Positions 5,986 to 56,139 of a stretch of DNA of 64,000 nt are shown here, piece after piece (the stretch's first letter is position 1; each line of letters starts with the position of its first letter). The stretch is from a virus. The notes beneath the pieces are model-generated. The model was not told the origin of the DNA and did no database searches. It was given only the letters and a program-made list of their open reading frames with translations. The stretch covers positions 62,001 to 126,000 of the IMG/VR virus record IMGVR_UViG_3300005965_000002; one strand, written 5' to 3'. A program made the translations under genes and the position numbers.

Positions 5986-8900
5986 ATGTTTAAGACTGCA
6001 CTAGCCTATGAGAATTGGAAAACCAAATATCGGTACGAGAACGAGACCCCCGAAGAAACTTTCCTCAGAGTCGCAAAGGCTCTAGCTTCAGTAGAAAAAG
6101 ACCCTGAATATTGGACTGATAAATTTTATAGAACTCTTGTTAAGCTTAACTCAGAAGGTGAAGCCATAGGCTTAAAATGCACTCCCGGGGGGCGTATTAC
6201 AGCTAATGCGGGAACGGATTTCAAGCATGCAACTCTCCTCAACTGCTACATTTCGGGGGCTGTTTCTAATGCTGAAATAAAATATCCTAGAAAGACCTTT
6301 GATAATAAGCTTGCTCACGATATCGTCTATAAGTCCGATAAAAATCCTGATGATCTTATTAATATATTTTTAACTATTCTGGAGCAAGCTAAAACCCTTG
6401 CTTCTGAAGGAGGGTATGGGATAAATTTTGATTTTATCCGCCCTAGAGGATCCTTAATTAAGGGTACCGGAATAAAGCACCCAGGCGTAGTTAGCTATAT
6501 GAAAATATGGGATTCCGTTTCGGAATGTATAGTAAAAGGTACAAATGATGGGTATATAGATAAACTAAAAAATTACTTAAATAAAGAAGATTTTAATGAT
6601 ACTAAGGAAATAGTAAAATCCATGACCCGTAAGGGAGCTATGATGGGTGTTCTTAGTTGTGTTTCTGGAGACACCTTAATTTCTACCATAGACGGTTTGA
6701 TTCCTATTAAACAATTAGTAGGAAAAAATCCTCTTTTATACTGTACAGGTAAGGATAGAAACATATACGTCAGAAGAGCTAATAAAGTATGGAAGACAGG
6801 AAAAAGAAAAACGCTAAAGATATTATTAGACAATGATACTCATTTGATATGCACTCCTGACCATAGAATTATGCTACATGATGGGTCTTATAAGGAGGCT
6901 AAAGACTTGGTATTAGGAGACTCATTGTCAGCATTCTATAAAAGTATTTATTGTAGAAAAGGTATTTACAAAACAAGTGCTTATAAACAAATAGGTATTA
7001 CTGGTCAAAAGAAAACCATACCTGAGCACAAAGCCGTGTGTGAATTTAAATACGGTATGTACCCCGAGATAGTTGTCGAAGAGGATGGAGTTTCCTATTC
7101 GGATAATAGCCAAGTCATACACCATATAGACGGGAATTCATTAAACAACTCCCCTGACAATATAGAACTTATATCTTTTTCAGAACACGCTGATCGCCAT
7201 AAAGAAGAAACAATAAGAATATTCGATAAAAATAGAAAAAGAATAGCAAAAGAAAGAAAAGGAAAAACTTGGGAAGAGTATTACGGACCAGAAAAAGCTG
7301 CTATTTTAAAGAAGAGAGCCAGTGAAAGAATTAAATTAAAAAGAAAAGGTAGCTGGAATAAAGGTTTAAATGGTGCTAAGTATAAGGAACATTATCAGAA
7401 CGGATTTAAAAATCAGTTTGAAGAGGCCAACACTTGGGAAGAAGCGTATGGTTTAGAGAAAGCTTTATCGGCAAAGAATAAAAAGAAAGAAACTCTTGCT
7501 AAAAATACCCTTAGTAACCATAAAGTAATAAGTGTCTCAGATTATGAAGAAATTGATGTTTTTGATATATCTGTGCCCGATTTTCATAATTTTGTGGCTA
7601 ATGGTATCTTTGTTCATAATTGTAGTCATCCTGATATTGAAGAGTTTATCAGAGCAAAACAATCCTCCGGAGTTTTAACCAAGTTTAACATATCAGTACT
7701 TATAGACGACAAATTCATGGAAGCCGTAAAAAAAGATAAACTCTATGATTTGAGCTTTAATGGCAAAATATACAAAAGGGTAAAAGCTAAAGACTTGTAT
7801 AATATTATCATGGAATCAACATATAATAGAGCGGAGCCTGGAGTTCTTTTTGTTGATAACATGCATCGAAATAATCCGCTATCCTATTTAGGTAAAGCTA
7901 CATGCTGCAATCCCTGTGGAGAGGTGCCGGGTTTGGGCTCTTTAACAACAACATGTTTATTGGGGTCTCTTAATCTTACTCAATATGTATTAGCTTACGA
8001 TAAAGAAACAGGTGCTAAATTAAAGAAACCTATTTTTGATTGGGAACAATACGAAGATGATATAAAAGTATTTACTCGAATGCTTGATAATGTAAATGAT
8101 ATTACTTATAACTCTCTTCCCTCTTATGATTGGGTTACTAAAAACATACGTCAGTTTGGTATGGGGATAAATGGTTTAGGATCTGCTTTATCAATGTTAA
8201 GAATTCCATATAACTCCAATAAATCCCACCAATTTGTTAAAAAAGCTGTATCCATTAAAGAGAATATAACCTGGCAAACTTCAGCTTTGTTAGCAAAAGA
8301 AAAAGGTACATTTCCAGCATATGATAAAGAACAATTTGAATCTACTGAATATTTTAACTCAGATCGCATAATAGACGAAACCCGTGAAATGCTCCGTAAA
8401 TACGGAGCCCGTAATGGAAAGACGACGACAAACCCGCCTCTTGGTAATACCTCAGTAATCTGCGACAATGTATCTAATGGCATAGAGCCTGTCTTCATGC
8501 TTGAGTATGAGCGTAAGGCTATCTGTAAAGATTGGCCTGAGGGTGTAAATGGGGAAAATATTAAAAAGCTCCTCAAGAAATATGATGAGAATGACTATAC
8601 ATATTGGCGGGGTGACATAAACGGAAAGACTTATTATTATGAGCCTCATAATAGAGGATTGTGTGGGGTAACAACAGTCCGCGACTATGGTTATCAATGG
8701 TTACTTGATAATTATCCCGAAGAAGATCATAGCGAGTACCTCGTAACCACAGATAAGCTCACTGTGGATGATCACGTAAACTTGCAGAGTATTGTTCAGT
8801 ACTACTGCAACCAGTCTGTTTCTAAAACTTCAAACCTTCCTTTTGGATATCCTTTTGATGAGTTTAAAGACCTTTATATGAAGGCTTGGAAGAAGGGTTT

Positions 8901-9519
8901 GAATGGTTTCACTACTTATCGTAGCGGATCTATGGAATCTGTTATTTCAGAAATAAGCAAAGCAGAAGAGAGCAAAGAGATTATAGCCCGGGACATAAAG
9001 CTTCCTACTGAATTCGTTAATGGCCCTACTCGGGTAATCAAAAGAGAGCAAATGAAGTTTTACATTCATTTCTCTTATTTACCTGAAGACTCCGAGATGG
9101 TATTCCCGGTTGCTATGTGGATATATACTAATGATAGAAACAAAGATAACTCTCGTATATGTAACAAAGCTTCACGCAATTTGGCTAAGCTGGCGCTAGA
9201 TTGCGGTGTTGATAGGGAAATTGTAGAGAAAGCCCTTGATAAAGCTAAAAAAGATTATCCACATAATAGACTTGGTAGGATGATCTCGCTATGTATGAGG
9301 CATAACGTTAGCCGAGATGATATACTGGTGTCTTTAATGGGTATTGATGGTGATCATATTTCTACACTATTAACTGCCGTACGAAAGTTTATAGGAGAGA
9401 CCATTAAGGATGGTACTAAACTAAAAGGTTACAGATGTGAAGAGTGCAATGGAGATAATGTAATCTTAGAAGGTGGTTGTAAAAAATGTCAGGACTGTGG
9501 CTTTAGTGGTTGTGGTTGA
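5986..9519 (+). CDS. nrdJ: Adenosylcobalamin-dependent (class II) ribonucleotide reductase with HNH intein
   Basis: Reduces ribonucleotides to deoxyribonucleotides for phage DNA synthesis. Recognisable parts are TPGGRITANAGTD, the catalytic-barrel segment NPCGEVPGLG, TTNPPLGNTSVICDNVSNG, CNQSVSKTSNLPFGYP, and a C-terminal cysteine-rich tail (CEECN...CKKCQDCGFSGCG) typical of vitamin-B12-dependent NrdJ. There is no class I small-subunit gene or class III activase nearby. An intein of 321 aa splits it between GVLS and CSHPDIEEF; the spliced protein would be about 856 aa. The start ATG follows AAAGGATG. It is first in a plus-strand run with dUTPase, an obvious nucleotide-supply pair. Confidence 0.93.
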   Translation: MFKTALAYENWKTKYRYENETPEETFLRVAKALASVEKDPEYWTDKFYRTLVKLNSEGEAIGLKCTPGGRITANAGTDFKHATLLNCYISGAVSNAEIKYPRKTFDNKLAHDIVYKSDKNPDDLINIFLTILEQAKTLASEGGYGINFDFIRPRGSLIKGTGIKHPGVVSYMKIWDSVSECIVKGTNDGYIDKLKNYLNKEDFNDTKEIVKSMTRKGAMMGVLSCVSGDTLISTIDGLIPIKQLVGKNPLLYCTGKDRNIYVRRANKVWKTGKRKTLKILLDNDTHLICTPDHRIMLHDGSYKEAKDLVLGDSLSAFYKSIYCRKGIYKTSAYKQIGITGQKKTIPEHKAVCEFKYGMYPEIVVEEDGVSYSDNSQVIHHIDGNSLNNSPDNIELISFSEHADRHKEETIRIFDKNRKRIAKERKGKTWEEYYGPEKAAILKKRASERIKLKRKGSWNKGLNGAKYKEHYQNGFKNQFEEANTWEEAYGLEKALSAKNKKKETLAKNTLSNHKVISVSDYEEIDVFDISVPDFHNFVANGIFVHNCSHPDIEEFIRAKQSSGVLTKFNISVLIDDKFMEAVKKDKLYDLSFNGKIYKRVKAKDLYNIIMESTYNRAEPGVLFVDNMHRNNPLSYLGKATCCNPCGEVPGLGSLTTTCLLGSLNLTQYVLAYDKETGAKLKKPIFDWEQYEDDIKVFTRMLDNVNDITYNSLPSYDWVTKNIRQFGMGINGLGSALSMLRIPYNSNKSHQFVKKAVSIKENITWQTSALLAKEKGTFPAYDKEQFESTEYFNSDRIIDETREMLRKYGARNGKTTTNPPLGNTSVICDNVSNGIEPVFMLEYERKAICKDWPEGVNGENIKKLLKKYDENDYTYWRGDINGKTYYYEPHNRGLCGVTTVRDYGYQWLLDNYPEEDHSEYLVTTDKLTVDDHVNLQSIVQYYCNQSVSKTSNLPFGYPFDEFKDLYMKAWKKGLNGFTTYRSGSMESVISEISKAEESKEIIARDIKLPTEFVNGPTRVIKREQMKFYIHFSYLPEDSEMVFPVAMWIYTNDRNKDNSRICNKASRNLAKLALDCGVDREIVEKALDKAKKDYPHNRLGRMISLCMRHNVSRDDILVSLMGIDGDHISTLLTAVRKFIGETIKDGTKLKGYRCEECNGDNVILEGGCKKCQDCGFSGCG
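6658..7620 (+). mobile_element. HNH-endonuclease intein in ribonucleotide reductase (321 aa)
   Basis: Starts CVSGDTLISTIDG (block A), has LICTPDHRIMLHDG (block B, TxxH) and ends DFHNFVANGIFVHN, followed by Cys+1. The middle carries an HNH motif, VIHHIDGNSLNNSPDNIELI, and lysine-rich repeats similar to HNH/NUMOD proteins, not LAGLIDADG. Excision restores GVLSCSHPDIEEF. It sits upstream of the catalytic-barrel segment of the reductase. Confidence 0.92.
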
Positions 9520-26820: not shown

Positions 26821-27219
26821 TTATTTTTTTAGATTGGTAATGTTCAGCCCGCTACCGCTGTATATTTTTGAGTGGTTATTTATGAAATCTACAGTTTCAG
26901 GGTCATCTAGATCTCCCCAGAAGCATAGATTGCGTAAAGGGCTCTGCACAATCATTTTTACCTCATCCATGTGGGGGAAATATGAGGAAAAGATAGTTAT
27001 TCCCCCCGGATCACCAAAAGTATACTCGGATCGGAAATACTCCTGTAGAGCTTCAAACATCGGAGACTCATCGTAACCGTGTATAATTTCATTACTTACG
27101 GTTAGGATGACGTGAGGCCGGTCTCCAGCGATAATAACTGCTTTAGATTCTCCTGATTCGCGTATTCTTCCGGATTCGTATACAAGTCTTGCAAAGTAAT
27201 TCCATCTCCGTTCATCCAT
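26821..27219 (-). CDS. Hypothetical protein overlapping the RecD helicase gene
   Basis: 132 aa, soluble, with a beta-rich middle (GGITIFSSYFPHMDEVKMIV). The first 118 bp overlap the end of the helicase gene in another frame. The start is supported by AAAGGA eight bases before ATGGATGAACGG. A shorter product from Met54 is possible but has no better ribosome site. Function not recognised. Confidence 0.55.
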   Translation of the reverse strand: MDERRWNYFARLVYESGRIRESGESKAVIIAGDRPHVILTVSNEIIHGYDESPMFEALQEYFRSEYTFGDPGGITIFSSYFPHMDEVKMIVQSPLRNLCFWGDLDDPETVDFINNHSKIYSGSGLNITNLKK

Positions 27220-30200
27220 CCTCTGATCCTTTCGTCGAACAGAGTGTTTCTTCTCTGTATCCGATCATTATTAATCGCTTGCTCTATAGCTGATCCTTGC
27301 CCTAAGACCACAACTTTTTTCTTGGCCCTTGTAATGGCGGTATACAAAAGATTTCTCTGAAGAATTCTCTGACCATGGGCGCGTACAATAGGCAGGATAA
27401 TCAAGGGATATTCTAAGCCCTGACTATTATGGGTTACATACCCATTCATCACATATGTATTATCGTGTTCTACCTCAATATCATACATATCTACTTCAGG
27501 TAATTTTTCTACTGATATTACTTTATCATAATTATAATCACTATTGTAATATGTGTTTTCAAACTTATAAAATAAGGAATTACCCTCATTGTGTCCTATT
27601 TGAGGATTTCTCAAAGCGCACAGGTAGTCGCCGTTTTTTATATTTCCCGCTTCTTTAAAGTAGATTCCAGAGGTATTGGCTACAAGGTGCCTATGCTCAA
27701 AACTAGAATCTACAAATGCTCCTGATTTAGTAGTAATTCTATAAACTTCCTTTTTCCCCACATGTACCTTGGATATTACCCTTTTTTTATTATTTTTACC
27801 TGTTAGCACTATATCACCTTTTTTTATGTCAGATAAAGGTATTATCCCTCGTTCAGTAAAGATTTTATTGTATCCAGGAGCGCATTTGTGTACACTTATT
27901 GCATAAGCTAATTTAAGCATATCATCCGCAAGCTTCATGGGGATTTCTACTCGTTTTGTTTTCCCATCAAACTCATCAATATCAATAACAATATTTCCTT
28001 CTACTATTAAAACGACCTTACCAATATCTCCATTAAATACATCTAGGTAGTAGTTGTTCTTTTTGATTAGTACCCGGTCGCCTTTTCGAATTATCATCCG
28101 GTTTAAAGAAACCTCTTTTTTGTTATCTGCTGGAGGGTTTAGCACACTCTGAAGCGCTACGTTAAGCGTTTCTACACTCAGAGGGCCATTATTCCTCGGG
28201 GTGATAATCTGGAAAAGCGTGGGTTCCTTTTTCTTTTTGTTTCCGTCCTTTATATGCTGAGCAAACCGTATGATTGTTTCTTCGATTGTTCCCATATTCT
28301 TTTCACGAAGGAACCATATATCAGCATGCTTATCTCTTTTAAATAGGGAAAGATCCGTATTGCCGTCTCTTATCCTTTTAGCGGCTTTGATGATGTCAGA
28401 CTGCTCTTCCTGCCGGAATATGGTTCTAAGCTGAATGACTTTAAAGCATGCGCAGCTAATTAAGTGCTTAAGTACGGTACCTGGGCCTACAGAAGGTAGC
28501 TGGTCATTATCCCCGACGAACACAATCTTTGTGTGGGAGAATAAGGCAGAAACCAGCCTGAAGAACACCTCCATATCAACCATGGAAGTCTCATCTACAA
28601 TGACTACCTTTGTATTGTACTTATTCAGAGCATGGTAGTCCCATTTATCTCCTTTATACCCTAGCTGTCTGTGTATCGTGCGTGCATCATAATTAGCCGT
28701 TTTAGCCAGCTTTTTAGCAGATATGCCGGTAGGTGTCAGTAGGTCAAAGCTTATATTCTTTCTCACCATGAGTTCTACAAGAGCTTTAACAATTGTTGTA
28801 TTGTGAGTTACTGTGAAATCTCCTAAAACAAATCGACCGTTTCCTGATATTTGAAACCCATAATATTTACCCTTTCCTATGCTTTTAATTTGTATCCCAG
28901 TAACTAGATTATCTTTAATTTGTTTTCTTTCCTCGGCTGTTTTTTTCTTAACCTTCGTTGGTATCTTACATAGACCATTACCAGAAATAGTAGCACGGTA
29001 ATAAGTGCCCTCTCCTGAATAGTATTTCCCTTTACTAAAGCATGAAAAGGATTTTTTGCATGGTTTAGGGTAAGCGCTGAATCCTAATGATCTAGCGATG
29101 AAAACTACATCGTTTAAAAGCTTTTCACTCTTAAATATTATGTCATAGCAGTTTCCTCTTTTATCATAAGATCCATCAGAATCGATTATACCAGCTAAAA
29201 GATTGAGTCTTATTTCTTCGCTGTTGGCCTTATATAAGTGGGGGACAGTTTTTGCTATTGTCAGCCCAGATTCTTGTAGATAATTCCAAAAAAAATTGGG
29301 CTTTCTTTTTCCCTTTAATTCTCCGTATGCTTTTGAATCCATATCACGGGATATGTGGTATTCAATATTATCTCCACTAACTTTTTTTATTGAAATTTCT
29401 GTCCCTCTTAGTATGGTATCGATAGCCTCAACTACTTCGGTAAACGGAGTACTTATTCTTGAGGCGTCTATAGCGCCGTTTCCTAACCACATACCGAGTA
29501 GGTATGGATGTATAGGTATATCTTTTGTTGGAAATTTAACAGGCACTCTGTACCCTTTTAGCCTTTCACGAAAGCTCTTGGCTAAAGAAAAATAAGTGTC
29601 TATGGATATATCGTGTATTTTTCCTTTACCTGACCCAGCATAGGTTGATTGCTTTAGAGAGAGAATATGAGACCTATTTACGACGTACTTATCTCCCTTT
29701 TTAGGAATAACTTCAAAAAGTTCTTCTTCCCCAGTCGCCGTGGAAAGAACTACCCTGGGGGTAGAGTCATCCCCCATCAGAACATCGTTTGTCTTTATAT
29801 CTTGAACTTCTTTAATTGTACCATCATACATTAGAACGGGTGTCCCGTAGCCTAAGCATTTACCTGTACCCGGGGAGCCTGTAATCACCATTACTTTTTC
29901 TTTTGTGAAAGATCTAATAGATTCTTTTTGATCCTCACTAAGATCCATGTGGTGGGCTTTTTCGTACTCGGATATAAATTCTTCTACGTTGAAATCCCCA
30001 AAATCGCACTCATCGTGCTTATCATAGATTTTCTTAAGTAGCCTGGCACTTTCATTTTCATAGAAAAACATGTTTATGTCGTAGTACCGGTTTTCGTCCT
30101 GGTAAATAAAGCCATCCTTTACCAGTCCTTCTATATGAGGCTCTATCTCAGAAAAAAGAACAACACCATTTTTGAATGGGTACTCAGAACTTTTATTGTA

Positions 30201-30920
30201 ATCATTGAATAGCTTGCTGATTTCAGCAGGCTGCAGGAACAGGTGTCCGGACTGCATACAGCTACGAAGCATAAAAAGGATAAAGTATCGGTATCTTAGC
30301 GGGTCCTGCGGAGATTTGCCTAGTTTGTGCGCCAGGTAATCGCAAGTGGTGAATCCGAATCCTTCAAAGCTTAAAAGATAGGGATTCTGCTTGATGACTA
30401 ATTCGGCATTGTAGCTATATTTCGATATGATTTTTTCTATTTTGAACTTAGAAAGCCCGAGGCTATGGAGGAATACTTTTACGGATTTTAACTCTTTATT
30501 TTCCTTCCACGCCTCAACAATATTTTCTACTATTTTTTCGCCTATACCCTCGATCTCAGTTAATCTTTCCGGGGTATTTTCAATGATATCTTCTATATCT
30601 TCTTTCTTAAAGTGCTCCGCTATGTCTCGGGCTCTTTCGGGTCCAATCCATTTTGCGATGGACTGTAAGTAGAGATAAATTCCCTGTAGTGAGTTATCGT
30701 GTGCGAAGGTATGGCTGAGAGCTTTGAATGTCATCCCGTATTTAGGGTGATTGAAGAAATCACCATGCACATCTACCATAGCGTTAGGTAGAAGATTTGG
30801 GAAAGAACCGGAAACCGAAATCCTAGCTCCGTCTTTCTGCGCAAGTATAAAAATTTTGAAGTCACCGTCTTGCGATTCAAATTTTATTTTGTTTACTTTT
30901 CCGGTGATAGTTTCCATCAT
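27102..30920 (-). CDS. recD: RecD2-like DNA helicase with two inteins
   Basis: Superfamily 1 5'-3' helicase. The N-terminal region has an OB-like strand set and helix-hairpin-helix repeats (LTEIEGIGEKIVENI), as in RecD2. The ATPase core shows MVITGSPGTGK-TTIVKALVEL (motif I, split by intein 1), VVIVDETSMVDMEVF (motif II), VFVGDNDQLPSVGPG (motif III), LRTIFRQEE (IV) and AISVHK-SQGLEYPLIIL (V/VI, split by intein 2). The precursor is 1272 aa and the spliced enzyme about 766 aa. It would act in recombination or replication fork processing. Confidence 0.92.
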   Translation of the reverse strand: MMETITGKVNKIKFESQDGDFKIFILAQKDGARISVSGSFPNLLPNAMVDVHGDFFNHPKYGMTFKALSHTFAHDNSLQGIYLYLQSIAKWIGPERARDIAEHFKKEDIEDIIENTPERLTEIEGIGEKIVENIVEAWKENKELKSVKVFLHSLGLSKFKIEKIISKYSYNAELVIKQNPYLLSFEGFGFTTCDYLAHKLGKSPQDPLRYRYFILFMLRSCMQSGHLFLQPAEISKLFNDYNKSSEYPFKNGVVLFSEIEPHIEGLVKDGFIYQDENRYYDINMFFYENESARLLKKIYDKHDECDFGDFNVEEFISEYEKAHHMDLSEDQKESIRSFTKEKVMVITGSPGTGKCLGYGTPVLMYDGTIKEVQDIKTNDVLMGDDSTPRVVLSTATGEEELFEVIPKKGDKYVVNRSHILSLKQSTYAGSGKGKIHDISIDTYFSLAKSFRERLKGYRVPVKFPTKDIPIHPYLLGMWLGNGAIDASRISTPFTEVVEAIDTILRGTEISIKKVSGDNIEYHISRDMDSKAYGELKGKRKPNFFWNYLQESGLTIAKTVPHLYKANSEEIRLNLLAGIIDSDGSYDKRGNCYDIIFKSEKLLNDVVFIARSLGFSAYPKPCKKSFSCFSKGKYYSGEGTYYRATISGNGLCKIPTKVKKKTAEERKQIKDNLVTGIQIKSIGKGKYYGFQISGNGRFVLGDFTVTHNTTIVKALVELMVRKNISFDLLTPTGISAKKLAKTANYDARTIHRQLGYKGDKWDYHALNKYNTKVVIVDETSMVDMEVFFRLVSALFSHTKIVFVGDNDQLPSVGPGTVLKHLISCACFKVIQLRTIFRQEEQSDIIKAAKRIRDGNTDLSLFKRDKHADIWFLREKNMGTIEETIIRFAQHIKDGNKKKKEPTLFQIITPRNNGPLSVETLNVALQSVLNPPADNKKEVSLNRMIIRKGDRVLIKKNNYYLDVFNGDIGKVVLIVEGNIVIDIDEFDGKTKRVEIPMKLADDMLKLAYAISVHKCAPGYNKIFTERGIIPLSDIKKGDIVLTGKNNKKRVISKVHVGKKEVYRITTKSGAFVDSSFEHRHLVANTSGIYFKEAGNIKNGDYLCALRNPQIGHNEGNSLFYKFENTYYNSDYNYDKVISVEKLPEVDMYDIEVEHDNTYVMNGYVTHNSQGLEYPLIILPIVRAHGQRILQRNLLYTAITRAKKKVVVLGQGSAIEQAINNDRIQRRNTLFDERIRGWMNGDGITLQDLYTNPEEYANQENLKQLLSLETGLTSS
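27426..27884 (-). other. Mini-intein in RecD helicase motif VI region (153 aa)
   Basis: Begins CAPGYNKIFTERGIIPL and ends VMNGYVTHN, followed by Ser+1, between SVHK and SQGLEYP. Blocks A, B (DSSFEHRHLV), F (DMYDIEVEHDNTYV) and G are present. At 153 residues there is no room for an endonuclease domain and no LAGLIDADG or HNH motif. It is therefore a minimal self-splicing element that can no longer home on its own. Confidence 0.9.
28800..29858 (-). mobile_element. LAGLIDADG intein in RecD helicase Walker A (353 aa)
   Basis: Begins CLGYGTPVLMYDG straight after GSPGTGK and ends GDFTVTHN, followed by Thr+1. Excision restores the P-loop GSPGTGKTT. The two LAGLIDADG helices are LLGMWLGNGAIDAS and LLAGIIDSDGSYDK. 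Placement inside the nucleotide-binding loop is a classic intein site, since imprecise loss kills the enzyme. Confidence 0.93.
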
Positions 30921-31265: not shown

Positions 31266-31916
31266 TTAGTTCTGAATGTATTTACGATCAACGCGCACGA
31301 TGATATATTCACCAGGCTTGTACGTGGAGAATTTCATACCCTCACTGAATGCTTTTGCTGCATTAATTTCGAGGATTTCTACCCTGTCGCCCTCCCGTGT
31401 GGCAAACTTCGACGCAAAGTCGTTAGCCATCTCTGGAGTGTCATACAATTTGATGTACTTTTTTGTATGACTGCGTAGGCCTGTCTCCCGCATCCGACCT
31501 GCCAGGTTTTCCAGAGTACCAAAGTAAAGTGTATCAGGGGGTTGGACATACCGAACGATTTTGTACTTGATCTGGTTCTCCCCGTTGATGAGGATCTTCT
31601 GGTCTCTATCCTTGAAAAAGAACTCCACTACATGATTGTCATTGATGTAGTCAAGGTAAGGATGGAGGAAGACAACCACTTCTCTCATAGCCGGGATTGG
31701 TACGAATGCTTCTTGGTTATAAGGAAGCGAGTAGGATCTTCCTTCATTATCAAAAATCTCCAAGGAACCCGCGCAATTTTCACCATCACATTTGTCAGCT
31801 ACGCTCTTCAAAATATCAATAGAGCATAAAAGAGCTGTTTTGAGATCAGCGCTGCTTTTGAAAAGAGTTGGGGGTGACTTCTTAAACGGCGGTTTTTTGT
31901 TGTGATGCGGTATCAT
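31266..31916 (-). CDS. KptA/Tpt1-like ADP-ribosyltransferase-fold protein
   Basis: 216 aa. The last 90 residues resemble the C-lobe of RNA 2'-phosphotransferase, which uses NAD+ to remove the 2'-phosphate left by RNA ligation: PDTLYFGTLENL (family LYHGT), LRSHTKKYIKLYDTPEMA (family VHLS), VEILEINAAKAFSEGMKF and GEYIIVRVDRKYI. The usual His of LYHGT is Phe here, and the N-lobe with its R-H-R residues is not recognisable, so activity is uncertain. Residues 1-125 are unrelated to KptA. The ATG at 31916 is chosen for its AGGAGG site. Co-transcribed with the 31942 gene. Confidence 0.55.
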   Translation of the reverse strand: MIPHHNKKPPFKKSPPTLFKSSADLKTALLCSIDILKSVADKCDGENCAGSLEIFDNEGRSYSLPYNQEAFVPIPAMREVVVFLHPYLDYINDNHVVEFFFKDRDQKILINGENQIKYKIVRYVQPPDTLYFGTLENLAGRMRETGLRSHTKKYIKLYDTPEMANDFASKFATREGDRVEILEINAAKAFSEGMKFSTYKPGEYIIVRVDRKYIQN

Positions 31917-31941
31917 TAACTTATCCTCCTGTGGTAGTTTA

Positions 31942-32373
31942 TTAGGATTCCGCTTTATTATTAGTATCACTACTAATGTTGGTTTCTTCTTCTTCTATTT
32001 CTTCTTCTTTTAGGGCTTCAGAGATATCAGATTCGGATAAAAGGACTTCTCTTTTAAGCAAACCAAATATCGTGGTATTTAGAAAACTGTTAACTACTCG
32101 GGTCTCTGTAAGAAGGTGCTGAATCATCTGGTTGATAGGAGATTCCTGATCCTTTAAAATATTCCTTACATTAGCCTTATCCCCATTAGCTAAACCAGAT
32201 AAAACTGTAGAGATATGCTCCATTGCTCGTACATTGAAGGAAATTTTCTTCTGAATAAAACCTTTCAGGTCTCGATTAATACCTTCCATGGAAAATGTAT
32301 AAGCTACTTCTTCTAACCGGCTATTATTCATTTCTTGATACTCTTGGAATTTCTTTTTGAGATCATCATTCAT
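31942..32373 (-). CDS. Hypothetical helical protein with acidic tail
   Basis: 143 aa, mainly helical, ending in a Glu-rich segment (EEEIEEEETNISS). First gene of a two-gene minus-strand unit with the KptA-like protein, 25 bases apart. A promoter-like element lies at 32409-32438. No family recognised. Confidence 0.6.
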   Translation of the reverse strand: MNDDLKKKFQEYQEMNNSRLEEVAYTFSMEGINRDLKGFIQKKISFNVRAMEHISTVLSGLANGDKANVRNILKDQESPINQMIQHLLTETRVVNSFLNTTIFGLLKREVLLSESDISEALKEEEIEEEETNISSDTNNKAES

Positions 32374-32408: not shown

Positions 32409-32438
32409 AATATACTGGTTTGCTCATTCTTTTTAAAG
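32409..32438 (-). promoter_or_regulatory. Putative early promoter for KptA-like operon
   Basis: Minus-strand CTTTAA (32438-32433), 18 bases, TATATT (32414-32409), 36 bases before the ATG at 32373. Two more GTATAT boxes on the same strand (32545-32550 and 32572-32577) lack a good CTTTAA partner. The whole 32374-32803 interval has no gene and is very AT-rich. Confidence 0.6.
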
Positions 32439-32612
32439 CGAATAAATGACATTTTTTGAGAAAATAAGAATATTTACTATTTTATAAACTGTATACTCGT
32501 TATTAATTATGACTTTTACCTTACCTAATAATTTACCAGAACCCAATATACTTTTTTAAATCATTACCTTACATATACTTTTTTAAAATTCAAAAAATAA
32601 AACCTATATATT

Positions 32613-32634
32613 AGTAATTATATTAATAATTACT
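32613..32634. repeat. Perfect AT-rich inverted repeat, candidate operator
   Basis: AGTAATTAT and ATAATTACT (9 bp each) around ATTA, in the intergenic region between divergent promoters at 32409-32438 and 32743-32772. Dyad symmetry fits a repressor site, though AT-rich DNA yields such repeats by chance. Confidence 0.4.
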
Positions 32635-32663
32635 CTTCTATTGTGTTTCCTCGAAGAGGAAAT

Positions 32664-32698
32664 ACAGTAGTAGCTATAAGAAATAAAGCTTAAACAGA
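32664..32698 (+). repeat. 35-bp repeat, copy 1, preceded by a 10-bp hairpin
   Basis: Matches 33449-33483 at 32 of 35 positions; it opens ACAGTAGTAGC and closes AAAGCTTAAACAGA. Just before it is a hairpin (stem GTGTTTCCTC with GAGGAAATAC, loop GAA, 32643-32665; one G-T pair). Shortly after it is CGACAAAAAATTAG, echoed after copy 2. Non-coding. Confidence 0.8.
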
Positions 32699-32772: not shown

Positions 32773-32803
32773 GGAATAGATGTAAAGAAATCCAGGAGTG
32801 AAT

Positions 32804-33178
32804 ATGGGTCCTATTATAGTTATATCTGCTGATAAACTATCTCAATCAATGTTTTGTTCTTATTTATCCCAGATTTCCCTTATAGGGAAGGAAGTGGTAG
32901 TTAGAGATATAAATCTACTCTACTCCCCTGATGTTCAAGAGCAGATGATTGATGAATTTCTTACTCAGTTAGATAAAAGCCAACTATTGGTTGTTAAGTA
33001 TAAGATCAAAATAAATACTGATATGGATAAATTTAAGCTGCCGCCTAAAATACAGGATGCAGCATCTTATATTGTATTATTCGACATGTACTCCACCCAC
33101 CCTGAAGTATTAAAGGATACTCAGCAGTTTCCTAAGATACTTGATCGCTGGGAGGATTATATAAAAGGGCTCTCTTAG
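32804..33178 (+). CDS. Hypothetical protein opening the plus-strand replication block
   Basis: 124 aa, alternating strands and helices (IIVISADKLSQSMF, VLFDMYSTHPEVL). The ATG lies seven bases after AGGAG; a GTG six bases earlier falls on the ribosome site itself. It is directly behind an early-type promoter. No family recognised. Confidence 0.6.
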   Translation: MGPIIVISADKLSQSMFCSYLSQISLIGKEVVVRDINLLYSPDVQEQMIDEFLTQLDKSQLLVVKYKIKINTDMDKFKLPPKIQDAASYIVLFDMYSTHPEVLKDTQQFPKILDRWEDYIKGLS

Positions 33179-33179
33179 A

Positions 33180-33533
33180 GAGCTAACCCTCGTTTGAGAG
33201 AAGGTGAGCAAGGAGATAAGCAGCGGGATCGAGGCAGATTGACCGTGGTGGCTCCTGAAAATGCAAACCGGGCGGCTTATGAGGATTTTTAAAGGTCTTT
33301 TTAGGAAAAGGCCCCCTGCCGAAAGGCTGAGGAATTCTGCCAATAACTTACAGCCCGTAAATGCACGCGAAGCTGAGTGAGGCCCTGCCAGAAAGAAGCT
33401 TATAAATATCAAGCACTTAGGCAGGAAATAATACCAACTAAAGCCAAAACAGTAGTAGCCATCAGAAACAAAGCTTAAACAGAAGAAACTCTGTTTCGGC
33501 GGGGTGCGTTAATCCCCTCGACAAAAATTTTAG
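33180..33533 (+). ncRNA. Candidate structured non-coding RNA or long leader, ends approximate
   Basis: No convincing gene lies between 33179 and 33549, yet the stretch is much richer in G and C than its surroundings. Possible stems: GGTCTTTT with AAAAGGCC around a four-base loop (33294-33313, one G-T pair). ATAAGC with GCTTAT (33216/33275). CTTACAGC with GCTG-AG-TGAG. CCTGCC with GGCAGG (33384/33420), enclosing GCTT with AAGC. AAACAG with CTGTTT, and GGGG with CCCC, near the 3' end. No match to tmRNA, RNase P or tRNA signatures was seen. It could be a free RNA or the leader of the delta' gene. Strand assumed from flanking genes. Confidence 0.5.
33449..33483 (+). repeat. 35-bp repeat, copy 2
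   Basis: Second copy of the 32664-32698 repeat (three mismatches). It lies 66 bases before the delta' start and inside the 3' part of the candidate RNA. Relative to copy 1, an extra hairpin-containing segment (about 33484-33518) precedes the shared CGACAAAAA-TTAG tail. Confidence 0.8.
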
Positions 33534-33549
33534 GTGAGGAATGTAACTC

Positions 33550-34563
33550 ATGTATTTCAAAGCCATTAAAGGCCATGGGGAAAATATTGCCCTGTTTAAA
33601 AAATGGGTGGTAGAAAACTCATTTGAAGGTGTTTATCTTTTTACAGGACCTAAAGGGGTAGGGAAATTTACAACGGCTCGCCAGCTCTGTAAATACATCC
33701 TGTGTACCGGAGTAAAAGATGATACCTGTCGCTGTGGAAGCTGTAAAATTTTTCCAGGCACCCCTGATTATCTGGAGATTAGTAAGGGTGGAGGAGAAAC
33801 TATTAAAGTTGCTGACGCAGAAAGCATAGACAATTTTACTAGTCTTCTTCCTTATAAAAGTAGAAAAAGGGTTGTGTTGATTGATGATGCAGAGAATCTA
33901 AACGTAAAAGCGGCTAATCGTCTACTAAAGGTGTTAGAAGATATAAAGAGCCATATGATTGTCATTTTGGTTTCTAGTAACCCGCATCTAATTCTCCCAA
34001 CTATTAAATCACGCACAACAGAAATTCCTTTCAGTCGCTTATCTGTGGAGGAATCTTTAGAGGTATTGAAGGATAGGGGCATGTCCGTTGGAAAAATTAA
34101 AGATATGTCCAAGGCTATACCATATTTGAGGGAAAGCATGCCTCGGGCAGGTCTTAAGTACTATGAGTATTATAAGTATGTACCCTCCTTCCTGGAGCTA
34201 ATGGTTTCTTCCAGTGAAGACGAAGTCTTGAGTGCTATTAAGAGTATAGAAGAAAATGAAAACATTTCTTATTTTGCCGAAATGTTAGTTGAGTACCTAT
34301 CTGACATGCTAAGGATAATGTACGATGCCGAGAACAACATACATTTTGATGCAAAGTTTAAGGAAATAGAGAAATTGACATTTTCTTGGAACGACGATCT
34401 ATGTATAGCATTTGCTAACCGCCTGCGAAACGCAATATCTGATTATGATCGAGGAATAAATTTGAAGTTGTATAATAGAGTACGCACAGCAGTATCCTGG
34501 GTTTACATTCTTCTCCAGAATCATTTGGGTAGGAAACAAAGTAAAGCCAAGGTTGCTCCATAG
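33550..34563 (+). CDS. holB: Clamp-loader delta' subunit (HolB-like)
   Basis: 337 aa AAA+ protein. The N-terminal ATPase domain has a P-loop GPKGVGKFTTA (33-43), a zinc module C52...C60-x-C62-xx-C65 as in DnaX/HolB, VVLIDDAENL (Walker B region) and NRLLKVLED with IKSRT (sensor region). The C-terminal third is helical. It belongs to the complex that opens the sliding clamp, with delta next door and tau/gamma at 38.3 kb. Confidence 0.85.
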   Translation: MYFKAIKGHGENIALFKKWVVENSFEGVYLFTGPKGVGKFTTARQLCKYILCTGVKDDTCRCGSCKIFPGTPDYLEISKGGGETIKVADAESIDNFTSLLPYKSRKRVVLIDDAENLNVKAANRLLKVLEDIKSHMIVILVSSNPHLILPTIKSRTTEIPFSRLSVEESLEVLKDRGMSVGKIKDMSKAIPYLRESMPRAGLKYYEYYKYVPSFLELMVSSSEDEVLSAIKSIEENENISYFAEMLVEYLSDMLRIMYDAENNIHFDAKFKEIEKLTFSWNDDLCIAFANRLRNAISDYDRGINLKLYNRVRTAVSWVYILLQNHLGRKQSKAKVAP

Positions 34564-52695: not shown

Positions 52696-55600
52696 ATGGC
52701 TGGGAGAAAAACAGGGAACAAAGGAACAACACCAAAGACTACGGTCACTAAGACTGCCTCTGAGGATTTAACTGTCCAGGAAGTACGTGGGGTAAAACCT
52801 ACTATGAAATTAACTGATAAAGAAAAACAAGTACGTGCGTTGAAGAAGTATGCTACTACCTCCTTTGGTTTTGGTAGTAGGGTAAGTTCAATGTACGGAA
52901 ATACGATGTTAAGTAATGAGGGTAATTTTTATTCTCCCCAGCTAAGTACAGACTTTCTTGAAAAACCACAAAATTTAAGAGAGAGACGGGCTTGGTATAG
53001 GCACTTCTATAATAGTAATGAGTTTGTAGGATCAGCAATAGACTTGCATTCCACCCTGCCTTTATCCAAAGTAAAACTGGAAAAGCCTAAGTGTAAAAAC
53101 CCAAAAATGGCACAATATGTTTATACGTTTTTTGAGGACATGTGCCAAGATATGAGACTGTTCAAGGTTCTTACAGAAATAAGCCACGAGTACTGGCTGA
53201 TGGGAAATTGTCTGGGAAAGAACTCAAAGCTTAGGTGTGTGGACTCTTATAAGAAAGCTGTTGATGTATCAGTAGGGGATTATGTACTTACTCATGAGGG
53301 TAGATTTAGAAGAGTAAAGAATAAATTTTCTCGGTACTCAGAAAAAATAACAAATATAGAAATGTGGAAAACTTATAAGAAGTTGGATCTTACAGAAGAA
53401 CATCCGGTTGAAGTTTATAGAAATGGTAAATTTGAATTTATAGAAGTCAAAGATCTAACGGAAGATGATTACATACGTGTAACATGGGTAAAAGATATAG
53501 ATGATGTAAAAACCATAAATTACTTAGAGAGTTTTAAAAATTTGGATATTACAGAATCTGGATATACGAAAGAAACAAATATAAAGAGAAAAAGAGCTAA
53601 GAAATCTCATGAATGCAGATTAAAGATGCTATTTTGGTTATCCAATTTAACGGAGCCTGTGATCAAGTCTAGAGATGACATAGCCTTTGATTTGAATGTT
53701 GAAAGAAAGACACTAGATAATGTTTTAACACAGTTAAATAAAGAATTTGGTAAAAGCAGATATAGTAGAAGAATAGGAGCGTCCAACTATCAAAAAGGAT
53801 CAAGGGTAGAGTGGCTACCTTTTAAATATTCTGATGTTGATAGCTGTTATGAGATAAAAAGGATAGAAAATTTTACCACTCCCCACACGGTTGATATTGA
53901 TGAAGATTTCTGCTATTTACTCGGGTACTGGATTGGGGATGGAACAATTTCAAGAGATAATAGTAGAAAGAATATTTGGGGAAGAGCTATATGGAATATT
54001 GTTTTTGGTGATAGCTCTGATAAACAAAAAGAAAAAATATATAGAATATTGCAGGAAAAGATAGGTATACAATGTATTAAGGAATGGGATTCCTACAGAG
54101 ACTGTGGAGATGGTAAAGTTAGTAAGCTTAGTACTGTTAAGATTAAGAGTAATCCTGCGTTTGTAGAGTGGTGGGCTAATAATTTTGGAGAGACTACAAA
54201 AGGTGATAATAGGAAAAAGATACCTTTATGGGTTTCTAAATTGCCCTTAAATAAGCTATATGCTCTTATAGCTGGTTTAGTTGATTCTGACGGATGTATA
54301 TCAAATGGTGTTTGTGATATTAGTTTATCTTCAGAATCATTGATTAGTTCTATACAGGAAATTTTGCTGAAATGTAATATTGTGCCTAATATTAATAAAA
54401 AGGAAGGAACTAAAGGAACAGGTGTTTTAAACAATAATGGAAAAATCTATAGCGATGTATATAAAGTTGTATTTAAAGCTAGAGATTTTTCTTCTTTTGT
54501 AGGAAACTATTCTATAAAGGGCGCAAAGTATTCGGATATAAAGCAAGAAAAGCCATACCTAAGCAAATACATAATTACAGATAATGGTGATATAGCATTT
54601 AAAGTAAAAAAGATAACAGAATCTGAATATAATGATATGGTTTTTAACTTTGAAGTGGAAGAAGACCATACTTTTCAAGTAGAGGGTTTTTCCACACACA
54701 ACTGTTTTCCTTTTGCCGAAGACCACGATCCTTACGATGGTGATGAGCAGACTGTAGCCCATCTTAAAGAAGAGGGTAGACAGAGAGCTGAGTACCTGTG
54801 GGAAAATTTTAAAGTAAGAGACAAAGACCCTAATTACAAAGGTTGGAGAAAAATTATCATTTTACCCCCGGATCAGGTTCGGGTAAGAAATGTCCTGTTG
54901 TCCGACCAAGAATCAATTATAGAATTCATGCCTGACCCGGAGACAAAAAAGTTAATAATGGGAGAGGGGTTAGGTAGGGTGTATGGCTATAGTGAAAGTA
55001 TGCAAATAAGCGAGATGGAAAAGAACATAAGCGTACCTGAAAAAATGAGGGATCAGATTAGAGAGGGGGGATCCATACCTCTAGATACTGATCCATATAC
55101 AGGTTCTCACGTTTACCACTTAGCCAGGAAAAAGAGCCAGTATGAGACACTGGGTGTATCAATATTAGAGAGATGTATCAATACCCTCCTTTTTGCCGAT
55201 AAAATCCGTCAGGCTCAGACTTCTATAGCCTCTCGACATATGACCCCTATTAGAATTGTATGGGCAGAGGAGCTCAATGAGGCGGATGTTGAAGCTCTGA
55301 GAGAACAGGTAGACCTTGCTCTAGTGGATCCAGATTATTCCATTATAACCAATTACCAAGTAAATTGGGAAGAGATGGGAAGTAATGGAAGATTGTTGGA
55401 GTTATCTACAGAGTACGAGCATATAGAGAATTCTTTGTTTGCTGGTTTAAATGTCACTAGGGAAATTCTGACCGGTGAAGGTTCATACTCTGGTAGCCGA
55501 ATTACCCTGGAGGTAATGAATCGAATCTATCTGCTCTTCCGAGATAGCATCCAAGAGTACATAGAAAATTATCTCTTTAAGCCCGTGGCCCATAAAAAGG

Positions 55601-56139
55601 GATTTGTTGAGAAAGATGAGTTTGGAAGAGAGCGGTTGATTTATCCTAAGCTGTCCTTCACGAGACTCGCTATTAAGGATAATGATGTTTATTTTGACCA
55701 GGTAAATCAGCTATATCAGAAGGGTTCGGTATCAGTAGATGTTATCTTGGATATGCTTGGTATTGATCCTGACGCTACAAAAGAAAAAATTGAAGCGGAT
55801 CTATTCACTGTTAATGACGCCTCCTTTAACGCTTTTATGCAGTCCCTATACACCGCTGTCGGATCTGACTTCTTCCAAAAGTATGATGTTGAAGGGGCTC
55901 TGGCTAAGTATCTCAGGATACCGGAGCTTGTGCAGCCTGCCGGAGAAGAAGAAGGAGGTTTAGGCGGAGCAGGTCTGGGAGGCGGACTAGGCGGAGGAGA
56001 AGCTCGGTTTGCTTCAGAAGATACTTCTGATATGACAGAGAGAAGGAAGGCGGCATTGCAGAAATTGATGAAGATAGCTATCAAAAACCCAGATAAACTG
56101 GATAAGCTAGCTCAAATTTTCGACCGTAAGAGAATATAA
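52696..56139 (+). CDS. Portal protein with intein
   Basis: The precursor is 1147 aa; the spliced product is about 649 aa. The extein has portal-type stretches: RAWYRHFYNSNEFVGSAIDL, SHEYWLMGN-CFPFAEDHD, WRKIIILPPDQVRV, TRKILTGEG-like TREILTGEGSYSGSR, and a C-terminal Gly-rich loop then helix. The dodecameric portal is the DNA gate of the capsid and seeds head assembly. Its place before a protease-scaffold-capsid run supports the call. Confidence 0.85.
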   Translation: MAGRKTGNKGTTPKTTVTKTASEDLTVQEVRGVKPTMKLTDKEKQVRALKKYATTSFGFGSRVSSMYGNTMLSNEGNFYSPQLSTDFLEKPQNLRERRAWYRHFYNSNEFVGSAIDLHSTLPLSKVKLEKPKCKNPKMAQYVYTFFEDMCQDMRLFKVLTEISHEYWLMGNCLGKNSKLRCVDSYKKAVDVSVGDYVLTHEGRFRRVKNKFSRYSEKITNIEMWKTYKKLDLTEEHPVEVYRNGKFEFIEVKDLTEDDYIRVTWVKDIDDVKTINYLESFKNLDITESGYTKETNIKRKRAKKSHECRLKMLFWLSNLTEPVIKSRDDIAFDLNVERKTLDNVLTQLNKEFGKSRYSRRIGASNYQKGSRVEWLPFKYSDVDSCYEIKRIENFTTPHTVDIDEDFCYLLGYWIGDGTISRDNSRKNIWGRAIWNIVFGDSSDKQKEKIYRILQEKIGIQCIKEWDSYRDCGDGKVSKLSTVKIKSNPAFVEWWANNFGETTKGDNRKKIPLWVSKLPLNKLYALIAGLVDSDGCISNGVCDISLSSESLISSIQEILLKCNIVPNINKKEGTKGTGVLNNNGKIYSDVYKVVFKARDFSSFVGNYSIKGAKYSDIKQEKPYLSKYIITDNGDIAFKVKKITESEYNDMVFNFEVEEDHTFQVEGFSTHNCFPFAEDHDPYDGDEQTVAHLKEEGRQRAEYLWENFKVRDKDPNYKGWRKIIILPPDQVRVRNVLLSDQESIIEFMPDPETKKLIMGEGLGRVYGYSESMQISEMEKNISVPEKMRDQIREGGSIPLDTDPYTGSHVYHLARKKSQYETLGVSILERCINTLLFADKIRQAQTSIASRHMTPIRIVWAEELNEADVEALREQVDLALVDPDYSIITNYQVNWEEMGSNGRLLELSTEYEHIENSLFAGLNVTREILTGEGSYSGSRITLEVMNRIYLLFRDSIQEYIENYLFKPVAHKKGFVEKDEFGRERLIYPKLSFTRLAIKDNDVYFDQVNQLYQKGSVSVDVILDMLGIDPDATKEKIEADLFTVNDASFNAFMQSLYTAVGSDFFQKYDVEGALAKYLRIPELVQPAGEEEGGLGGAGLGGGLGGGEARFASEDTSDMTERRKAALQKLMKIAIKNPDKLDKLAQIFDRKRI
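53209..54702 (+). mobile_element. LAGLIDADG intein in portal protein (498 aa)
   Basis: Begins CLGKNSKLRCVDSYKK and ends FQVEGFSTHN, then Cys+1. It joins WLMGN to CFPFAED. LAGLIDADG helices: YLLGYWIGDGTIS and LIAGLVDSDGCIS. A region between block B and the endonuclease (about DLNVERKTLDNVLTQL) looks like an extra helix-turn-helix, as in some homing endonucleases. It is the longest intein in the window. Boundaries are exact from the frame. Confidence 0.92.

Follow-up and report, generated by a model that had tools for sequence, protein, structure and literature searches.

The DNA analyzed here contains a probable new non-coding RNA gene, which follows a small protein-coding gene and carries a matched copy of a short sequence located upstream of that gene. 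The analyzed stretch (64,000 nucleotides, hereafter the window) corresponds to G000:C1:62001-126000 of a 258,580-bp virus record. The window and six other phage loci have a common layout, consisting of a hairpin, the upstream repeat copy c1, the small gene, the non-coding RNA (ncRNA) and the second repeat copy c2. Comparison of these loci at the sequence level establishes the layout, the matching of the copies, the non-coding RNA region and the position of c1. Conservation centers on the matched repeat pair c1/c2, with the small gene as the constant partner of the RNA. Judging from the sequences, c2 may act by pairing at c1, a reading that we hold tentatively, as quite possible rather than probable. 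A phage RNA-guided origin, which the small protein and the trans-acting structured RNA would recognize, open or prime, is conceivable and in our estimate somewhat unlikely.

Within the window, genes for the clamp-loader subunits delta′ and delta and for a DnaG-like primase were recognized by family match, and genes for the major capsid protein and terminase are read from relatives and sequence. An earlier note on this DNA had placed the RNA between a small gene and the delta′ gene (33550..34563, + strand; PF13177, 2.4e-34). These coordinates are right in the window, but delta′ is a downstream neighbor outside the unit and no fixed partner, as other genes separate it from c2 in two relatives (G005 and G015). 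The earlier note had missed that the small gene is flanked by the repeat, and that this layout is what the relatives keep.

An MCP search of IMG/VR yielded 499 relatives, of which 80 were kept. Orthologues of delta′ with 48% (G001), 43% (G005), 39% (G046), 37% (G009), and 36% (G015) identity were found, and upstream of delta′ in all five records lies the small gene followed by a non-coding stretch, the two together flanked by a direct repeat pair. A seventh locus with the same gene order and layout, L219, was obtained from a scan of genome contigs from 84,980 prokaryote species. Its contig (WJJK01000172.1) is assigned to a Candidatus Altiarchaeales MAG and has the look of a phage contig that was misbinned; the gene order is KptA-like gene, divergent gene, small gene, delta′, delta. 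Among 46 records searched, the small-gene profile picked out exactly the window record and these five, and with L219 added the layout is present wherever the small gene was found, in seven loci. The seven loci that make up the sample are all metagenomic and some are fragments, and several of the statistics below were framed post hoc. No match was obtained when the DNA of the locus was searched in phages, when delta′ was used as a single-protein query in IMG/VR, or by tblastn of the small gene in the phage collection, and profile scans with delta′ and the KptA-like protein gave no additional loci. A motif-pattern search of IMG/VR returned the G005 contig again and nothing else, a VVAIRNKA-like coding-sequence pattern gave 11 matches in IMG/VR, and a DNA search with the ncRNA in the 46 related records produced short and weak matches only.

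The repeat shared with another site, reported in the earlier note, is a 38-nt direct repeat with copies 785 nt apart, c1 (32661..32698, + strand) and c2 inside the RNA gene (33446..33483, + strand), which are identical at 34 of 38 positions. Exactly two copies are present in the 258,580-bp genome. The other phages show 49/53 (G001), 62/63 (G005), 41/41 (G046), 33/33 (G009), 64/64 (G015), and 31/32 (L219) identical positions, so that c1 and c2 match at 89–100% over 32–64 nt in each phage, with a spacing of 785–1,101 nt. When c2 was compared between phages without gaps, the best identity fell inside the shuffled range in 19 of the 21 pairs; G009/L219 was clearly above it (0.74) and G046/L219 marginally (0.66, with a shuffled maximum of 0.64). 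As the copies match within phages and are not alike between phages, the constraint is on the match and not on the sequence. Such a pattern points to pairing or templating, and it is easier to reconcile with pairing than with a protein site of fixed sequence. No other copy of comparable length, sense or antisense, was present in the genomes searched, and the simplest pairing partner for c2 is the complementary strand at c1. In all seven phages c2 has the sequence and the sense of c1, which is the sense of a primer and would enable it to pair with the c1 site. The c1/c2 pair is the sole direct repeat of its kind (300–2,500 bp apart) on its contig in G001, G005, and G046. Other, often stronger, direct repeat pairs exist in G000, G009, and G015, those in G000 and G015 looking like collagen-like repeat genes; long genes of this type are located at approximately 147–150 kb of G000:C1, outside the window, and similar ones occur in G015 and G007.

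The region between the small gene and delta′ had been described as free of credible genes and rich in G and C, and both observations hold: the 126-aa open reading frame ends at 33178 and delta′ starts at 33550, and the GC content is 0.44–0.51 over 33175–33474 against approximately 0.39 genome-wide. The G+C-rich 5′ domain of the ncRNA (33179..33445, + strand) is non-coding in the relatives, and the stretch from the small gene to c2 has stops in all three frames in six of the seven phages; the GC-rich G009 has open frames in the ncRNA region, by composition. As stated earlier, tRNA and tmRNA hallmarks are absent from the window stretch, and a check against Rfam, including GOLLD, ROOL, RNase P, and introns, left this stretch unmatched at the gathering score. 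At permissive thresholds, nothing credible was found for the window and four relatives. Its recurrence directly behind the small gene in all seven phages, interrupted by stops in six of them and unmatched in Rfam in the five that were searched, supports the assignment of a new non-coding RNA gene from sequence, which was the central proposal of the earlier note; the structured character that the note also proposed is weak when the window copy is taken alone.

Folding of the window copy gave z-scores of −1.5 (391 nt) and −0.7 (267-nt 5′ domain). Values for the relatives were −5.8 (G001), −2.5 (L219), −2.1 (G005), and −1.9 (G046), with the window, G009, and G015 at −0.6 to −0.7. All complementary arms listed previously are present (the hairpin at 33294–33313, CUGCC at 33384 with GGCAG at 33420, and AUAAGC at approximately 33215 with GCUUAU at approximately 33275), but the AUAAGC/GCUUAU pairing is missing from the predicted minimum-energy fold. 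AUAAGC belongs to a conserved element, GATAAGC ... GTGGTGGC (33214..33255, + strand), and a similar AUAAGC ... GUG element appears in four independent folds (window, G005, L219, and G046). In these individual folds a short helix encloses AUAAGC opposite GUGG or GAGUG, and the bases of this helix change and mostly still pair (GGAG/CUCC, GGG/CCU, AAGGAU/AUCCUU, GGGGAU/AUCCCC). Alignment of all seven ncRNAs over their whole length with MAFFT and RNAalifold gave no usable result, because the sequences are too diverged. The predicted unpaired fraction is higher in c2 than in the 5′ domain in every phage (0.43–0.74 versus 0.36–0.43), with a small margin in the window copy. Two short hairpins 3′ of c2 (33477–33496 and 33501–33517, + strand) are a candidate 3′ end of the RNA, and in several relatives c2 is likewise followed by hairpins. 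A further palindromic hairpin, GCTCTCTTAGAGAGC, spans the stop codon of the small gene (33169–33183), and by eye similar hairpins mark where the small gene ends in G001 and L219.

The c1 copy abuts a perfect hairpin, TTTCCTC-GAA-GAGGAAA (32646..32662, + strand), with a 7-bp stem, a 3-nt loop and a background probability of 0.0084. A perfect hairpin abuts c1 in all seven phages, with stems of 5–8 bp and loops of 3–5 nt; the background probabilities per genome are 0.002–0.08 and their product is ~4e-14, calculated with criteria set after the pattern had been seen. An equivalent hairpin is found at c2 in one phage of seven, and it is absent at the window c2. Next to the hairpin lies an AT-rich divergent intergenic region (32430..32645), with 82% AT over 200 bp, which contains the second most AT-rich 200-bp window of the 258-kb genome. 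With at least one of the two window sizes used, the c1 region takes first or second rank for AT-richness in five of six genomes, the exception being the GC-rich G009, where it is not unusually AT-rich. Gene orientation switches in the divergent intergenic region that holds c1, with genes to the left mostly on the − strand and genes to the right on the + strand; the switch is less clear in G009, in which ORF calling is unreliable.

The global GC-skew minimum lies near c1 in G000 (94652, with c1 starting at 94661), G009 (131801, c1 at 131757–131794), G001 (15526 versus 15715), and G005 (37677 versus 38927). Only a local minimum is found near c1 in G015, and two further related contigs (G007 and G016) have no internal skew minimum, which made them unsuitable as controls. 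In the best-sampled genome the skew at third codon positions (GC3 skew) does not flip at c1, which indicates that gene orientation explains most of the GC skew; in the two genomes tested the sign flips at c1 only in the small non-coding fraction. As the GC3 skew shows no replication signal, GC skew is not independent evidence for an origin.

The small gene (32798..33178, + strand; 126 aa, or 124 aa from the ATG at 32804) is conserved in all seven loci, and the proteins of the six other loci are 28–42% identical to that of the window. No significant relative was found among Pfam, PHROG, NCBIfam, or PDB sequences. Structure prediction gives an alpha/beta fold with good confidence (best model pLDDT 85.8). 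Foldseek searches with this model returned weak matches, none with E < 0.001, many of them to P-loop/RecA/AAA-type folds that include Elongator, ORC, and clamp-loader subunits; a Walker A motif was not seen in the aligned sequences. The best conventional rival to pairing assigns both repeat copies to this protein: in RNA mimicry with autoregulation, it would bind the ncRNA at c2 and, within the leader, its own mRNA at c1, and either the free protein would repress its own synthesis or the ncRNA would titrate it. Such a circuit agrees with the position of c1 upstream of the small gene and of c2 in the RNA just downstream in all seven loci, and with the confinement of the small gene to records that have the layout. 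We nevertheless consider it unlikely, since near-identity over 32–64 nt is unnecessary for a protein site, since a site bound by related proteins should stay recognizable between phages and c does not, and since the hairpin occurs at c1 in all seven phages and at c2 in one.

Our preferred explanation is that the unit of hairpin, c1, small gene, ncRNA, and c2 encodes a small protein and a structured RNA, and that this RNA, probably bound by the small protein, would act in trans. The c2 segment would pair with the complementary strand of c1 beside the hairpin and form an R-loop; the RNA has a suitable sense for this, and the AT-rich, hairpin-flanked setting of c1 is consistent with it as well. 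The most likely purpose would be to open, mark or prime a phage replication origin. The origin and priming step, taken by itself, we regard as doubtful, and it is similarly questionable whether, as the RNA-guided reading would have it, the RNA segment co-evolves with a hairpin-flanked origin site. No DnaA was found in the records, which leaves room for another initiator and no more. Counted against pairing are the negative search for a phage RNase H in six records and a codon-like pattern in c (see below), which pairing alone does not predict. In addition, transcription from a promoter upstream of c1 could yield a nascent RNA that forms an R-loop by itself, which would leave the need for a second copy unexplained.

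Several known systems share parts of this scheme. The ColE1 RNA II is a structured RNA with a hybridizing segment that primes replication, and its transcription runs in cis across its own origin; in the present phages, by contrast, the hybridizing segment is duplicated and the target is upstream of the RNA gene. The sense of the present RNA would suit priming of rightward leading-strand synthesis, like the origin transcripts of phage T4. At the T4 R-loop origins (oriF and oriG), which have an AT-rich unwinding element, RNA paired to one strand can prime the leading strand (PMC3016281). That RNA is the transcript of the origin itself, and the R-loop forms independently of any specific sequence. 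The candidate RNA here differs in being a separate structured gene that carries a matched copy. In Tetrahymena, the 26T RNA directs ORC to the rDNA origin through base pairing (PMC4287346). What we propose is alike in that a base-pairing RNA directs a protein complex to an origin, whereas the 26T system is eukaryotic and involves an rRNA fragment and an unrelated protein.

The codon-like pattern in c raises the possibility that c is translated, as a start-less short frame in both places, comparable to a tmRNA tag or to leader peptides. Every phage has one or more frames that stay open across most or all of the repeat, and in four phages there is a single such frame. Of the ten internal c1/c2 mismatches, nine affect a third codon position of the open frame (binomial p ~4e-4), and purines are enriched at its first position, with an excess reached by 19 of 3000 shuffles. 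The pattern is unexplained and supports translation, and with tmRNA the RNA shares a structured body with a start-less, A-rich, codon-like segment. Here, however, no tRNA-like domain was detected (ARAGORN), no tmRNA was found with Rfam in the window and four relatives, no phage SmpB was found, and the second copy of the segment lies outside the RNA. There is no common AUG or other start codon in c, and the encoded peptides are not conserved, except between G009 and L219, which leaves no conserved tag. Finally, synonymous positions, too, are nearly identical between c1 and c2, so matching at the nucleotide level is the stronger constraint. Taken together, translation of c appears decidedly unlikely.

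A structured RNA right after the small gene, followed by a start-less open frame that is duplicated upstream, would also fit a self-splicing or circularly permuted intron, with c1 and c2 as alternative 3′ exons, and by eye a short GACUAAA string precedes c2 in some phages. We judge an intron highly improbable, as permissive Rfam searches of the window and four relatives gave no intron match, no core was recognized, and c1 is preceded by nothing but the small perfect hairpin.

Direct repeats that flank a small cassette could likewise be the ends of a mobile element (att sites or a target duplication) or a template/variable-repeat pair, or they could be copies homogenized by gene conversion without function, as phage recombination could achieve. 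This group of explanations seems very unlikely to us. The position is constant although the neighboring delta′ is just 36–48% identical, no recombinase was recognized between the repeats, and the hairpin, present at c1 in every phage, is found at c2 in one. No reverse transcriptase (PF00078) was found in the six records, which argues against retroelement templating, and the c1/c2 mismatches have no adenine specificity; a diversity-generating retroelement or retron was rejected on these grounds.

Should the ncRNA locate c1 by pairing, an RNA would set origin identity in a prokaryotic system, and this RNA could be redirected by altering two short sequences in concert. With an RNA target instead, the locus would still hold an RNA-protein pair whose target is conserved solely as a match and may have any sequence. 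Conservation of the match only is a recognizable signature, one that could guide searches of other genomes. Like GOLLD, ROOL, and other large phage-borne RNAs, the ncRNA-c1/c2 system involves a structured RNA gene found in phages, but the RNA is smaller, unmatched in Rfam in the window and four relatives, and coupled to a matched repeat pair and a gene for a small protein.

Some neighboring features were observed in addition. An RNA 2′-phosphotransferase (KptA/Tpt1)-like gene is located near c1 (31266–31970, − strand) and is 54% identical to its L219 counterpart at the same place; its proximity to an RNA locus whose ends are duplicated may be either fortuitous or meaningful. Next to c1 is a divergent 143-aa gene (31942–32373, − strand) without a family match; translations compared by eye suggest that G001 and L219 each have a counterpart of it in the same position. 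Apparent in-frame inteins were noticed by eye in a RecD-like helicase gene (27102–30920, − strand), a ribonucleotide-reductase-like gene (5986–9519, + strand), and a large gene (52696–56139, + strand) that lies upstream of the capsid genes. Upstream of c1 in G046, near the contig end, a hairpin-rich segment (L119 3500–3640, − strand) ends in GTAGTTCAC, and presumably this resembles the right end of IS605-type TnpB elements.
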